The notes below the pieces were generated by a model that worked only from the letters and a program-made list of their open reading frames with translations, had not been told where the DNA came from and ran no database searches. Below, one piece after another: positions 54,417 to 59,987 of a DNA stretch of 64,000 bases. The DNA comes from Demequina flava (GTDB taxonomy: Bacteria > Actinomycetota > Actinomycetes > Actinomycetales > Demequinaceae), in contig NZ_BBRA01000002.1 of assembly GCF_000975035.1 (NCBI RefSeq), forward strand, positions 558,036 to 622,035. Direction: 5' to 3'. Numbering within the stretch: the first letter of the stretch is position 1; each line of letters starts with the position of its first letter. A program made the position numbers and the translations under genes.

Positions 54417-54947
54417 ATGGATGCCGCGATCGTCTTTGAGTCAATGTGGGGCAATACTGCTGCAATCGCGCACGCCATCGCGTCTGGATATGGAGACAGC
54501 GCACGGGCACTCACTACCGACGAGGCAACTCCTGGACTGGTTCAGACCCTCGCGTTACTCGTAGCGGGAGCTCCGGTGCACGGGCTCAACCTTCCAACAG
54601 AACGGTCCCGCGCTACGGCAGCGGCAAGGAACACGGACCCCGACGAAATCCCTGCAGACACGACCCATCCCAGGCTTGAGATGTGGCTCGAATCCCTCCC
54701 CGCCGGGCATATTGCGTTTGCGGCGTTCGAGACGCGCATCGCTGGTCCGCTGGGCCGTGGCGCGGCGACCACGATCGAGCGGCATCTGCGGACGCTCGGC
54801 TACCGAGAGATCGACCGTCGCCATCAGTTCACCGTGACGATGCGGCCCCACACCAAAAAGCCTGCCGCGATGTTACTCCCGGGCGAGGAGCAGAAAGCCT
54901 TCGAGTGGGGCATTCGGCTGAGAAAATCTGTCCAAGCCGCACCTTAA
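54417..54947 (+). CDS. Flavodoxin-like protein
   Basis: 176 residues. It opens MDAAIVFESMWGNTAAIAHAIASG, the phosphate-binding T/S-x-T/W-GNT loop of flavodoxins, followed by an LLVAGAPVHG strand-loop typical of the FMN site. Electron partner is unknown. It lies between iclR and the GH9 gene, with no sign of a shared operon (its own promoter; 161-base gap after it). Confidence 0.82.
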   Translation: MDAAIVFESMWGNTAAIAHAIASGYGDSARALTTDEATPGLVQTLALLVAGAPVHGLNLPTERSRATAAARNTDPDEIPADTTHPRLEMWLESLPAGHIAFAAFETRIAGPLGRGAATTIERHLRTLGYREIDRRHQFTVTMRPHTKKPAAMLLPGEEQKAFEWGIRLRKSVQAAP

Positions 54948-55108
54948 GGGCATTCCATAACCCCAGGTATAGGCACGATCGAAACGATGTTAACGCGCAC
55001 TTCTCCCGCATCGAATCGTTTCGTGTTACGTTCGGCTCACACTGCTCTGACAACCCCAGCGGAGCAGCATGTGCAATCCCCCACCGAAGGCTCAAAGGAG
55101 AGCAACAC
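54948..55108 (+). promoter_or_regulatory. Control region of the GH9 cellulase with a long inverted repeat
   Basis: CGAAACGAT (54980-54988) and ATCGTTTCG (55015-55023) are perfect 9-base inverted arms 26 bases apart. The left arm lies within ATCGAAACGAT, itself a near palindrome. The sequence does not match the CelR site known from Thermobifida. The cellulase SD AAAGGAG lies at about 55094-55100. No clear -10/-35 pair was found. Confidence 0.5.
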
Positions 55109-58100
55109 GTGAAACGCACCACGATTTCCCGCATCGCCGGAATCAGCGCCGGAGGCTTACTCATTTCTACGATCGCCCTCGCGCCAGCATCGGCCGACCT
55201 CGCCAATCAAGACTTCACCGAGGACGCCGGTAGCTTCTGGAGTTGGGGCCTCGCCGACGGCCATCAGGTCGTCGATGGCCAACTCTGCGGCACCTCAACC
55301 GGCGACGGCACTGGCGCCGGCGGCCTCGGCGCCAGCTTTCCCTTGAGCGCTGGCGACAACGTCGCAACGCTCGACCTCGACTCGACCGGCGAGGTTCAGG
55401 TCAAGGTCGTGTCCGGCCCCAGCGACTCTGTCGCCCACGCCGAGGTCATGGTCGACGCCGACGCCGAAAGTTCCGTCGAGATCCCGTTCACAGCGGACGC
55501 AGATGCGGACCCAGCAAAGATCATCGTCGACGTGAGCCACCTCGACGGCGTCCCACGAGAGGTCTGCATCGACAACGTCGCTGTCACCGCGCTTGTCGAA
55601 CAAATTTCCAACGGAGGCTTCGATGATGGCCTCGACGGCTGGACACACTACGGATTCGAAGACGGCACCGCTCGCGTCACCGAAGAAGGCGTGTTCTGCG
55701 CAACGGTCCCGGCAGGCACCGCGAACCCATGGGACGTCGCGCTCTTCCAAGATCTCGAACTCACGACCGGCCCCTACACCTTCAGCTTTGACTCCTCCGG
55801 CGCAGGACCCATCCGCGGGCACGTGCAACAAGAAGGCGGCAGCTACACGCCCTACGGCGTCATCGAGGCGGCAGGGTCGGAGGAACTCACCACCCACACC
55901 GTCGACGTGACGATCACGGACGAGCCGGTCGATCCTCGCATGGCCTTCCAGGTGGGCGGAAACGCTGACGAATGGGAGTTCTGCACAGACAACGTCTCCT
56001 ACGTCGGTGGTGCCGAGGCGGAACCGTACGAGCCAGAAACCGGCCCCCGCGTACGCGTCAACCAGGTGGGATACCTGATCCACGGCCCCAAGAACGCGAC
56101 CCTCGTGACCGACGCCGCCGAGCCAGTGTCGTGGGCCCTCGAATCCGACGGCGGTGAGGCCGCATCCGGCCTCACCGCGGTGCAAGGCGTTGACGAGTCC
56201 GCGGGCCTGAACACACACGGCATCGACTTTTCCGATGTCACGAGCCCCGGCACCTACACGCTGAGTGCTGACGGCGAGACCTCTTACGAGTTCGAGATCG
56301 GCACGGAAGCCTACGAAGACCTCCGCACCGACGCGCTGAACTACTTCTACCTCGCACGCTCCGGCATTGAGATCGACGGCGACATTGTTGGCGAGGAATA
56401 CGCCCGCGATGCGGGTCACGTCTCACAGGCCGGCGGCGACGCGACCAACCAGGGCGACCTGGGAGTGGGATGCCAAAACGCAGCGGATTCTGCTCGCGTC
56501 TACACCGACTCCTACGGATGGGAGCCGTGCGACTACACGCTTGACGTGGTGGGCGGCTGGTACGACGCCGGCGACCACGGCAAGTACGTCGTCAACGGCG
56601 GCATCTCGACCGCCCAACTGCTCGGAACCTATGAGCGGACCAAGACCGCAGCATCGGCCGACCTCGATGCCCTGGCCGATGGCACGCTCAACGTGCCGGA
56701 AGCTGCCAACGGCGTACCGGACGTCCTCGACGAGGCCCGGTGGGAACTCGAGTTCATGCTCAAGATGCGAGTTCCCGCGGGCGCGCAGTTCGAGGGACTG
56801 GTGCACCACAAGGTCCACGACGACGGCTGGACGGGCCTTCCGCTCATGCCTGCGGACGACCCTCAGGTACGCGAACTCCACCGTCCGTCTACGGCGGCGA
56901 CGCTCAACCTGTCGGCCACCGCGGCGCAGGGCGCACGCCTGTTCGCGCCGTACGACGAGGACTTCGCCAACGAGCTGCTCACGGCGGCGCGTGAGACCTT
57001 CGTGGCAGCCCAGGGCACGCCGGACCTGTACGCACCGGCGGCCGACGGCGCTGACGGAGGCGGTCCCTACGACGACTCGGACGTGTCCGATGAGTTCTAC
57101 TGGGCGGCCGCAGAGCTGTTCCTCACCACTGGCGAAGACCAGTACGAGGACTTCCTGCTCGCCTCCGAGATCCACGAGGCGGACTCGTTCCCGACCAGCG
57201 GATTCAGCTGGGACCAGTTGGACGCGATCGCGAAACTTAACCTCGCGGCCGTGCCGAACTCCTTCACAGACCGCGACGCGATCACGGAGCAGGTCCTTTC
57301 GGGGGCCGATGCCGTGGTTGCCGAGCAGTCGAGCCAAGCGTTTGGGCTGGCGCTACCTGACGACGGGTTTGTGTGGGGATCGAACGCCTCGGTTCTCAAC
57401 AACCAGGTAGTTCTGGGAAGTGCCTTCGATCTCACGGGCGACGGCAAGTATGCGGACGCGGTCGTCGAGTCGATGGACTACCTGCTGGGCCGCAACGCGC
57501 TCAACTGGTCCTACGTGACCGACTACGGCGATGTGACGAGCATGAATCAGCACAGCCGCTGGTTCACGAACCAACTCGACGAGACTCTGCCGAATCCGCC
57601 GTCCGGTTCGGTTGCCGGTGGACCCAATGCCGACATCGGCACCTGGGACCCCGTCATCACCGCGACGTACCCGGACAAGGACTGCTCGGCGCAGCAGTGC
57701 TACATCGACCACATCGAGTCCTGGTCCACGAATGAGATCACCGTGAACTGGAACTCCGCGCTGTCGTGGGTTGCCTCCTGGCTCGCCGACTACGACCAGG
57801 GCGCCGGGATCGTGGAGCCCTGCTCAGTCAGCTACACCGTTCACGGGTCATGGCCCAAGGGGTTCAACACCCAAGTGTGGGTAGAAAACATCTCGGACGA
57901 GGCGATCACCGACTGGCAGCTCACGTGGGCCTTCCCCGCGGACGATGCCGTGACGCGCCAAGCGTGGAGCGCCACCTGGTCGCAGGACGGTGCTTGGGTC
58001 ACCGCTGAAGGCAAGCGATGGAACGGCACCCTCCAGCCGGGCAATCGCACCACGATCGGGTTCATCGGGTCGCCGGGCAGCCTGTCCGACGCGCCGCCCG

Positions 58101-58144
58101 AACAGTTCTGGCTCAACGGCCAGGCCTGCGAGATGACCGGGTGA
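55109..58144 (+). CDS. Secreted GH9 cellulase with two CBM4-like and one CBM2 module
   Basis: 1011 residues from GTG 55109 (AAAGGAG upstream; the longer open frame overlaps the flavodoxin). Signal peptide to about residue 32 (ALAPASA). Two CBM4/9-like modules (about 33-165 and 166-310) and an Ig-like domain (about 314-403, RVRVNQVGYL) precede the GH9 catalytic domain (about 404-890), with Asp486/Asp489 in WYDAGDHG, His815 in NQHSRWF and acid Glu876 in TNEITVNW. A C-terminal CBM2 begins at Cys905 and ends GQACEMTG. The enzyme should act on crystalline or amorphous cellulose. Order CBM4-Ig-GH9-CBM2 is that of actinobacterial cellulases. No linker separates the CBM2 strongly. Confidence 0.93.
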   Translation: MKRTTISRIAGISAGGLLISTIALAPASADLANQDFTEDAGSFWSWGLADGHQVVDGQLCGTSTGDGTGAGGLGASFPLSAGDNVATLDLDSTGEVQVKVVSGPSDSVAHAEVMVDADAESSVEIPFTADADADPAKIIVDVSHLDGVPREVCIDNVAVTALVEQISNGGFDDGLDGWTHYGFEDGTARVTEEGVFCATVPAGTANPWDVALFQDLELTTGPYTFSFDSSGAGPIRGHVQQEGGSYTPYGVIEAAGSEELTTHTVDVTITDEPVDPRMAFQVGGNADEWEFCTDNVSYVGGAEAEPYEPETGPRVRVNQVGYLIHGPKNATLVTDAAEPVSWALESDGGEAASGLTAVQGVDESAGLNTHGIDFSDVTSPGTYTLSADGETSYEFEIGTEAYEDLRTDALNYFYLARSGIEIDGDIVGEEYARDAGHVSQAGGDATNQGDLGVGCQNAADSARVYTDSYGWEPCDYTLDVVGGWYDAGDHGKYVVNGGISTAQLLGTYERTKTAASADLDALADGTLNVPEAANGVPDVLDEARWELEFMLKMRVPAGAQFEGLVHHKVHDDGWTGLPLMPADDPQVRELHRPSTAATLNLSATAAQGARLFAPYDEDFANELLTAARETFVAAQGTPDLYAPAADGADGGGPYDDSDVSDEFYWAAAELFLTTGEDQYEDFLLASEIHEADSFPTSGFSWDQLDAIAKLNLAAVPNSFTDRDAITEQVLSGADAVVAEQSSQAFGLALPDDGFVWGSNASVLNNQVVLGSAFDLTGDGKYADAVVESMDYLLGRNALNWSYVTDYGDVTSMNQHSRWFTNQLDETLPNPPSGSVAGGPNADIGTWDPVITATYPDKDCSAQQCYIDHIESWSTNEITVNWNSALSWVASWLADYDQGAGIVEPCSVSYTVHGSWPKGFNTQVWVENISDEAITDWQLTWAFPADDAVTRQAWSATWSQDGAWVTAEGKRWNGTLQPGNRTTIGFIGSPGSLSDAPPEQFWLNGQACEMTG

Positions 58145-58209: not shown

Positions 58210-58587
58210 TCAGTGCGCGGCTCGCTCCGACACCAGGTTCTCCATCGCCGCAGCTGCGCGGCGAAGTTCCCGGTACACGCTGTCTCGCCCGTCGCCGCGG
58301 CGCGCCACCACCACGATGAGGAATGCTTCAGCGACGGTTCGCGAGATGATTTCGTGCTCGCGGCCATGGATCACGGCGCCTTGCAGATCAGCGACTCCAA
58401 GACTGCGGGCGGTAAGTTCCACGACTCCCATCAACGAAGCAACCGAGGCTGCACCTCGTTCACGGTCAACGAGCGTGGCGTCGTCGACGTACGCAATCCC
58501 GTCCGCGGTGGCGACAATCACGCGCTCGACGTCGTCACATTCGCGCAAAGGCGCAACTAAGGACTCGACGTGTTGCCGGTCGATCAA
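58210..58587 (-). CDS. Roadblock/LC7-domain protein (third of three)
   Basis: 125 residues if it starts at TTG 58587, which overlaps the preceding stop as TTGA; a GTG at 58626 would give 138 residues and a 43-base overlap. A single roadblock/LC7 fold (about residues 3-110, with VERVIVATADGIAYVDD as the central strands) and a helical C-terminus. Roadblock proteins bind MglA-type GTPases, often as activators. Last gene of a four-gene operon; followed by the GH9-side terminator. Confidence 0.82.
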   Translation of the reverse strand: MIDRQHVESLVAPLRECDDVERVIVATADGIAYVDDATLVDRERGAASVASLMGVVELTARSLGVADLQGAVIHGREHEIISRTVAEAFLIVVVARRGDGRDSVYRELRRAAAAMENLVSERAAH

Positions 58588-58970
58588 CTTGCCACCCGCG
58601 CCATGCCCGACATGGACCGAAGCCACTCAGATTCGCGCTGGACTACCTCACGCACCGCATCGCCCACCGGCACGTCGGCGCCAAGAACCACGGCGAGCAG
58701 GTGGCCCGCGTCAACGGGCGCGATCACGAGACTGCCAGCCTCTCCTTCGAGCACGGCGAGCCTCGCGGCGCCGAGGGCGAAGCTACTTGTGGCGGTCGCG
58801 GCAAGACCGACGGTGGCCGCCGTCAGTGCGGCCGCACCGTCCCGCGCGGCAAGCGGGACATCGTCGTACAGAGCGATGCCGTCTGTGCGGGAAATGATGA
58901 CGCGCTCAATCCCGGTGACACTTCGCTTCAAGCGCGCGGCCACCAGGAGGCCGTGTTTGGGAATGATCAT
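58584..58970 (-). CDS. Roadblock/LC7-domain protein (second of three)
   Basis: 128 residues from ATG 58970, which overlaps the GTPase stop by ATGA. Roadblock/LC7 fold: an N-terminal helix, GIERVIISRTDGIALYDD, and a second beta hairpin AGSLVIAPVD. It resembles the third roadblock gene in the first 40 residues, so the two are probably paralogues from a local duplication. Confidence 0.83.
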   Translation of the reverse strand: MIIPKHGLLVAARLKRSVTGIERVIISRTDGIALYDDVPLAARDGAAALTAATVGLAATATSSFALGAARLAVLEGEAGSLVIAPVDAGHLLAVVLGADVPVGDAVREVVQRESEWLRSMSGMARVAS

Positions 58971-59554
58971 GAGTGTCCTCCCCCGGACGGGGTTGTGGTC
59001 GAGCCAGGGTTCGATACCGAAGTGGCCGCGGGACGAAGTGCGTGTCCGACCACGGCCCGCAATGCGCGCGAGGTGTCTGACATGAGCCTCGGATCGCACT
59101 CCACAAGGCTTTGCTCGGGCACGCCGAGCGAGGTCGCAAGGTCGGCCGCTGATACAGCCGTGCGATCCCAGCGGTTCACGGCTAGGACATACGGCACATC
59201 GGGCGCGAAGGATTGAAAGCGCTTCAGAATTCCGCGGGCCTGAGCTTGAGACTGCAGTCTGCTGGCGTCAACCACAATGACGTAACCTGCCATGCCGTGC
59301 CCCAGGATCGGCCACATGAAACTAAACCGCTCTTGCCCGGGGGTCCCGAACAAGGTCACAAGGTACTCCGAGCTGTCGACACGAATTCGCGTGGTGCCGT
59401 GGTCGAGCGCGACCGTTGTCTGCTCCTTGAGCCGTGACGTCTCGTCAGACACTGCTCGTTCAAATCCCAATGCATCAGTACAGGCAGTGGTCACAAATGT
59501 CGTCTTGCCTGCGCCAAAAGGCCCAGCGATGACGACCTTCTTCACATCGCTCAT
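58967..59554 (-). CDS. MglA/CvnD-like small GTPase
   Basis: 195 residues. P-loop GPFGAGKTT (11-19); switch II GTPGQERF (no DxxG, as in MglA-type proteins); NRWD in place of NKxD for guanine recognition; then a Pro/Ser/Thr-rich tail. Such GTPases pair with roadblock proteins in bacterial conservons and motility systems. No histidine kinase or DUF742 gene of a conservon lies near. Probably cytosolic, at the membrane by interaction. Confidence 0.88.
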   Translation of the reverse strand: MSDVKKVVIAGPFGAGKTTFVTTACTDALGFERAVSDETSRLKEQTTVALDHGTTRIRVDSSEYLVTLFGTPGQERFSFMWPILGHGMAGYVIVVDASRLQSQAQARGILKRFQSFAPDVPYVLAVNRWDRTAVSAADLATSLGVPEQSLVECDPRLMSDTSRALRAVVGHALRPAATSVSNPGSTTTPSGGGHS

Positions 59555-59577
59555 AGTGTCGACGGGTCACACGGCGG

Positions 59578-59605
59578 CGGGGCGGCACGTCTCCGGACCG
59601 CCCCG
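59578..59605 (-). other. Intercistronic hairpin in the roadblock operon
   Basis: CGGGGCGG (59578-59585) pairs with CCGCCCCG (59598-59605) in the 67-base gap between the first roadblock gene and the GTPase. No U tract. It could stabilise the upstream mRNA and make the first roadblock protein more abundant than the rest. Confidence 0.45.
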
Positions 59606-59621
59606 TGCCTCCGTGGCGCCC

Positions 59622-59987
59622 TTAGACCTCGAGGGCCTGCTCGACAGCCTGCAGCTGACGGCGAGCCATTGCCAGGTTGGAACGTGAACGCTCAAGCGCG
59701 ACATAGATGAAAAGGCCGTGACCGTTCGGGGCGGTGACCAAGCGGATGAGGTGAATCTGGCTTCCGAGGGTGATGAGAATGTCCTCGATCTTGTCGTCGA
59801 GGCCGAGCGAATCCATGACACGCATCTTGGCGCGCACGACCTCCGTGTTACCGGCTGCAGCCAGTTCGAGGTCGAGGCCCGATCCCTGGGTCGCAAGCGT
59901 CATCCCGCTGTCGTAGTCCACCAGCGCGGCGCCGATTGCACCGTCGATGTCGAGGACCTGCTTCATTGAGTCGGCTGCGTTAGCCAT
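59622..59987 (-). CDS. Roadblock/LC7-domain protein (first of three)
   Basis: 121 residues from ATG 59987 (SD GGGAGGGAA; the open frame to 60071 lacks an SD). A roadblock fold with IDGAIGAALVDYDSGMTL and IHLIRLV, ending in a C-terminal amphipathic helix. It is the best separated of the three and more like CvnB-type conservon proteins than the other two (inference). First gene of the operon with its own promoter region. Confidence 0.84.
   Translation of the reverse strand: MANAADSMKQVLDIDGAIGAALVDYDSGMTLATQGSGLDLELAAAGNTEVVRAKMRVMDSLGLDDKIEDILITLGSQIHLIRLVTAPNGHGLFIYVALERSRSNLAMARRQLQAVEQALEV

Follow-up and report, generated by a model that had tools for sequence, protein, structure and literature searches.

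Roadblock genes packed closely around a small Ras-like GTPase gene recall, in an actinobacterium, the conservon. The locus studied here raises the question of whether such a set is what is left of a conservon or a GTPase switch in its own right. It lies in a stretch of 64,000 nucleotides from Demequina flava, the whole of which is called the window, in a genome of 2.5 Mb (G000). The close-packed genes are read from the minus strand in the order Rbl1, GTPase, RblB and RblC:

59622..59987, minus strand: Rbl1, first gene, 121-aa protein of roadblock fold (AlphaFold pLDDT 90; Foldseek to MglB/LAMTOR)
59555..59621, minus strand: intercistronic gap of 67 bases with a strong hairpin and no T-run (folding)
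58967..59554, minus strand: small Ras-like GTPase of the MglA family, 195 aa (Pfam, tree, motifs)
58584..58970, minus strand: RblB, roadblock/LC7 protein, ATGA-coupled to the GTPase (Pfam Robl_LC7, tree)
58210..58587, minus strand: RblC, fast-evolving roadblock/LC7 paralogue of RblB, TTG start at 58587 (Pfam, tree, model)

The GTPase and RblB frames overlap by ATGA. RblB and RblC overlap by TTGA only if RblC begins at TTG 58587 and not at GTG 58626, and the former was taken as the start because the orthologues begin at the equivalent codon. An earlier, sequence-only reading of this DNA had described three roadblock genes and one MglA-like GTPase in a tight unit, and Pfam together with the fold of Rbl1 confirmed this description. 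The 67-base gap with its hairpin and the two overlaps were likewise found as described, the TTGA overlap given the TTG start. Convergent with the unit is a gene for a large GH9-type cellulase with a cellulose-binding-type tail (window 54683-58144), which occupies the same slot in only part of the Demequina genomes, whether these have the unit or not.

How far do these genes belong together? The order Rbl1-GTPase-Robl-Robl is present in all 17 Demequina genomes that have Rbl1, so the arrangement, which the earlier reading had proposed to look for elsewhere, is not confined to one genome; the unit as such is found in 17 of 44. Among the 41 genomes searched for both Rbl1 and the GTPase, which are related and do not stand for 41 independent events, 17 have both and 24 have neither; for some of the 17, the GTPase was counted on a stronger match alone. 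The remaining three of the 44 lack the GTPase, the search for Rbl1 having covered the 41. The slot of the unit reads leuD-leuC-IclR-(GH9 cellulase)-unit-DCC protein-(beta-lactamase-like)-ClpC, with local rearrangement around some units (G008, G004, G027). When 12 unit-less relatives were fetched, 11 had, ahead of the DCC gene, either IclR or the cellulase, and nothing between these two points matched any of the four proteins. Open frames and order are intact in all 17 units. Thus, the four genes form a module that is kept or lost as a whole, and this joint gain and loss is the strongest evidence here for a joint function. One genome (G008, L304 7781-8886, minus strand) carries, beside its full unit, an extra overlapping pair of GTPase and RblB next to IclR, without Rbl1 or RblC, which fits GTPase and RblB as the minimal pair.

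The gap between Rbl1 and the GTPase is also a recurrent feature. The hairpin of the window folds at -45.2 kcal/mol with its flanks (z -3.65). In 15 of the 17 Demequina units, the gap measures 44-68 bases and holds a hairpin of -27 to -44 kcal/mol (z -1.6 to -6.2) of differing sequence; of the other two, one has a gap of 26 bases and one has none by its start call. Around the unit, matches to intrinsic terminators or sigma-70 promoters did not go beyond chance. The hairpin was not called a terminator, there being neither a T-run nor terminator matches beyond chance. Since no T-run follows it, it is read as an element of mRNA processing or stability, which may dose Rbl1 separately.

The assignment of the roadblock proteins differs in its basis from gene to gene. 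Against the Pfam Robl_LC7 cut-off of 23, RblB scored 28.9 bits and RblC 27.5 bits, and the AlphaFold model of RblC (pLDDT 91.6) reached TM-scores of up to 0.86 to known roadblocks. Rbl1 matched no Pfam or NCBIfam model, and a search of PDB sequences with its profile gave nothing useful; its place among the roadblocks therefore rests on its fold. The AlphaFold model, built with 24 homologues (mean pLDDT 90), shows the succession helix-strand-strand-helix-three strands-helix, and this alpha-beta-beta-alpha-beta-beta-beta-alpha arrangement is that of the roadblock/LC7 superfamily. Foldseek placed it at TM-scores of mostly 0.74-0.80 to MglB, LAMTOR/Ragulator and an S. avermitilis roadblock in the PDB, the top match being 3kye (E 2.9e-7, TM 0.79). 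In a Pfam scan of the 24 family members, PF03259 was found in none at E<=1, and only stray matches appeared, including weak ones to LAMTOR5 in two members. Rbl1 is thus a roadblock protein by its predicted fold only.

Homologues of Rbl1 of about 50-62% identity occur in Acidimicrobiia, Steroidobacteraceae, Zoogloeaceae, Streptomyces, Deinococcus and others, with more distant ones in Hymenobacter, so that the family spans Actinomycetota, Pseudomonadota, Deinococcota and Bacteroidota. Of the Actinomycetota sampled, 28 of 396 have it, as do 54 of 346 genomes of the order of Demequina (Demequina counted in); in the phylum to which Peristeroidobacter belongs, 27 of 348 genomes gave a strong match. 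Where annotated, its members are called 'hypothetical protein'. In one genome (G045, L019 1495-2835, minus strand), the Rbl1 domain ends an open frame of 446 aa with a long N-terminal region of low complexity. Rbl1 is an older, cross-phylum family, separate from RblB and RblC, which present profile libraries miss.

The earlier reading had regarded the roadblock gene as tripled. This does not hold: a single duplication, RblB/RblC, took place in Demequina, and Rbl1 is older. Inside one genome, the identity between RblB and RblC is 26-35%, and that of Rbl1 to each of the two is 19-34%. In the Robl tree, RblB and RblC of Demequina form one clade (97/89), to which the single Robl of related three-gene units is nearest, the three sets together having a support of 100/100. 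Placing this single Robl nearer to RblB or nearer to RblC gave p values of 0.09 and 0.10 in the AU test, which favours neither placement. RblB is taken as the counterpart of the single Robl. Mean identities between orthologues of different genomes are 71% for Rbl1, 59% for the GTPase, 53% for RblB and 41% for RblC, and 44% of the positions of Rbl1 are invariant (15 genomes). These sequences indicate one RblB/RblC duplication near the base of the genus, followed by fast evolution of RblC. A recent duplication was rejected on the within-genome identity and the tree. The suspicion that the proteins were interchangeable recent duplicates thus failed, and the three roadblocks are, as judged from their divergence, not interchangeable.

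The GTPase matches the Pfam models Ras (1.6e-9) and ATP_bind_1 (9.4e-13) and carries GPFGAGKT in G1, GTPGQ in G3, NRWD in G4 and DPR in G5. Among the GTPases of the units, G3 reads FGTPGQ, with FGAPGQ and FGMPGQ in one member each, and the Thr-Thr of G2 is invariant. MglA proteins of Group 1 are known to have TVPGQ in G3 and an arginine in G2, GTPGQ being found in Groups 2-5, and a G4 without lysine along with a DxR in G5 has been seen in Group 2/3 proteins (PMC4316618). The unit GTPase shows the features of Groups 2-5, namely GTPGQ in G3, Thr in G2 and a linked MglB homologue (RblB), and neither the TVPGQ nor the intrinsic arginine finger of Group 1 (Myxococcus type). The GTPase tree unites the Demequina proteins with those of three loci of other genera in the same order (L201, L209, L212) at a support of 100/99 and sets the CvnD proteins apart in a clade of their own (100/100); the GTPases of Agarilytica and of the second type described below were too divergent to be placed.

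What, then, is the relation to the conservon? Neither a kinase gene nor a DUF742 gene adjoins the unit of the window, and none was seen flanking the other Demequina units. The one DUF742 gene of the window genome lies on contig C3, inside a complete CvnABCD locus. The CvnA kinase of this genome (L116 2123-6988) is 1621 aa long; it combines NIT, HAMP and HATPase domains with a C-terminal tail of great length, rich in Pro, Ala and Glu. A CvnD-like GTPase is present in all 44 Demequina genomes and is the sole GTPase match in 27. The signature of Group 2 is NxFD/DAR, as given by Wuichet and Sogaard-Andersen (PMC4316618); CvnD of the window genome has NCFD and DAR, and the unit GTPase NRWD/DPR. The lack of CvnA and CvnC noted from the sequence alone is real locally, both being present elsewhere in the genome, and the concern that a kinase or DUF742 gene might lie just outside and belong to the unit is answered by finding none adjacent and the sole conservon elsewhere. 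Of the interpretation offered, the conserved unit without kinase and DUF742 stands; its description as a conservon minus CvnA and CvnC does not. The outputs put forward with it, namely polarity, a surface structure or stress, are guesses, and none of the results obtained here favours one of them. An eroded conservon was rejected on the GTPase and Robl trees and on NRWD/DPR as against NxFD/DAR. By its sequences, the unit is a system separate from the conservon.

An older three-gene core of Rbl1, GTPase and one Robl is present in other taxa. Rbl1-GTPase-Robl stands alone in the three loci from other genera of the order. In Acidimicrobiia and a further actinobacterial class (L059, L156), it is followed by a larger fourth protein that has no Pfam match and whose Streptomyces counterpart matches DUF4388 weakly. 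When 20 proteobacterial Rbl1 loci were sampled, 9 had the trio GTPase-Robl-Rbl1, which in many proteobacteria is preceded by a receiver-like/winged-helix type of ORF about 320 aa in length:

L253, L255-L257, L260-L264, L070, L077, L097: loci with the ~320-aa ORF and GTPase-Robl-Rbl1

These loci correspond to the Group 3 systems, which in beta- and gamma-proteobacteria comprise a receiver-like/winged-helix protein, MglA and one or two MglB; MglA loci of Groups 1 and 5 lie near PATAN proteins (PMC4316618). Other arrangements were also observed. Plasmid pSU2 of Agarilytica rhodophyticola (L168 5001-7072) carries Rbl1-BLUF-GTPase-Robl, the GTPase being annotated as hypothetical, and this locus is possibly a light-controlled GTPase switch. 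Streptomyces chromosomes and plasmids hold a divergent Rbl1-DUF4388/HTH-like-Robl-Rbl1 set without GTPase (L149 6272-8472, L167 3233-5375), each genome having several copies of Rbl1. Elsewhere in the order of Demequina, other genera (L159, L160, L211) have a second type of Rbl1 with the motifs VASAYNSE and LEDMLLTL, whose neighbours are a GTPase of divergent sequence and a roadblock that can hardly be recognised as such. Some half of the Rbl1 genes sampled have no GTPase or Robl gene beside them, and Rbl1 may therefore in some cases act without these two. From these wider contexts, the Demequina unit is a variant without the larger fourth component and with the canonical roadblock duplicated. 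No description of the Demequina roadblock, BLUF-roadblock or DUF4388-roadblock systems was found in the open-licence literature.

Probably, the unit is a prokaryotic switch that is complete in itself, is not a conservon and is built around a Ras-like GTPase in the manner of MglA/MglB. In it, the GTPase would cycle between GTP and GDP. RblB, which is translationally coupled to the GTPase, is the likely regulator by analogy with MglA/MglB, in which MglB, as an asymmetric dimer, serves MglA as GAP and as exchange factor alike (PMC11016934). It would act as an MglB-like GAP/GEF, in the form of a homodimer or an RblB/RblC heterodimer; which of the roadblocks is the GAP we infer from this analogy. 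RblC may have become, by divergence, a further subunit for regulation or input; it could pair up with RblB or add another layer, after the example of MglC and MglB (PMC7949163). A dimer of Rbl1, perhaps separately dosed, would be the adaptor or effector, a role that suits the most constrained member, which persists in systems whose sensors differ widely. For signal or output, the relatives would have the DUF4388/HTH-like, BLUF or receiver-like/winged-helix protein. In Demequina, no input or output gene is linked to the unit, and this part would have to be supplied by an unlinked gene or by RblC itself. Tentatively, and with less confidence than the switch itself, Rbl1 could be a strongly conserved roadblock subfamily, not yet described, that serves as the unchanging adaptor in a widespread GTPase-roadblock signalling system, whose sensor/output part is swapped between lineages (BLUF, DUF4388/HTH-like, receiver-like/winged-helix); Demequina would then have a second, diverged roadblock instead, with a hetero-roadblock dimer as the input.

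Other explanations of the same set of genes have to be weighed against this switch. In a reduced conservon, the unlinked CvnA and CvnC would act in trans, the unit being a second G-protein output arm. Such an arrangement is unlikely, even though a CvnD-like GTPase turned up in all Demequina genomes searched, the window genome has the complete CvnABCD locus, and the unit shares the G4 without lysine and the DxR of G5 with Group 2/3 MglA (PMC4316618). Its GTPase and Robl branch apart from CvnD and CvnB, NxFD/DAR is missing, and 27 of the 44 Demequina have the CvnD-like GTPase without that of the unit. A polarity oscillator of the Myxococcus type, with the GTPase as MglA, RblB as MglB, RblC or Rbl1 as MglC and a polar surface structure under its control, is improbable. 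M. xanthus does have two roadblock paralogues of less than 9% identity, with an MglC dimer between MglB dimers (PMC7949163), and the models of RblC and Rbl1 match MglB; however, the G3 is GTPGQ and not the TVPGQ of Group 1, Thr-Thr stands in G2 where Group 1 has arginine (PMC4316618), and no RomR-like or pilus gene was seen adjoining the unit.

There is also a small chance of a Ragulator-like scaffold, i.e. a heteromeric roadblock platform that recruits the GTPase and does not regulate hydrolysis. Three different roadblocks are encoded, two Rbl1-family members match LAMTOR5 weakly, and the Rbl1 model is as close to LAMTOR/Ragulator (TM 0.76-0.80, about 22% identity) as to MglB, but such structural likeness is common to the whole superfamily, and no lipidated or wrapping LAMTOR1-like subunit was seen near the unit. 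That the cluster is decaying or neutral is scarcely credible. The patchy presence (17 of 44 genomes) and the fast evolution of RblC would agree with it, yet frames and order are intact in 17 of 17, the invariant positions of Rbl1 amount to 44%, the GTPase motifs are intact, and the unit is absent as a whole and not piecemeal.

The unit offers one Ras-like GTPase facing three roadblocks of different age and constraint, which is a compact natural set. It occurs in named, cultured bacteria, whose close relatives are naturally without the whole unit. The division of GAP, GEF, scaffold and effector roles among roadblocks thus becomes directly testable outside Myxococcus. Further, a profile of Rbl1 would expose many unseen GTPase systems.

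Among known systems, the conservon, which belongs to Group 2 (PMC4316618), resembles the unit in having a Ras-like GTPase adjoining a roadblock gene in an actinobacterium, a G4 without the lysine of NKxD and a DxR in G5, and an MglB-type roadblock gene coupled to that of the GTPase (RblB in the unit, with an ATGA overlap). The unit differs in lacking the CvnA kinase and DUF742, in its GTPase, which has NRWD/DPR and falls outside the CvnD clade, and in its order Rbl1-GTPase-RblB-RblC. The Group 3 systems (L253, L260, L262, L070) share the GTPase, the canonical roadblock and Rbl1, whereas the Demequina unit has no receiver/winged-helix gene, another order and the duplicate RblC, and the Group 3 GTPases do not form one clade with that of Demequina. 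The Acidimicrobiia loci (L059, L156) begin with the three genes that also open the unit, arranged alike, but have an unrelated larger protein as the fourth in place of RblC. MglA/MglB/MglC of M. xanthus (PMC7949163, PMC11016934) is similar in that two or more diverged roadblock proteins partner a single GTPase, while the Group 1 GTPase motifs, the RomR/Frz partners and the motility function are those of M. xanthus.
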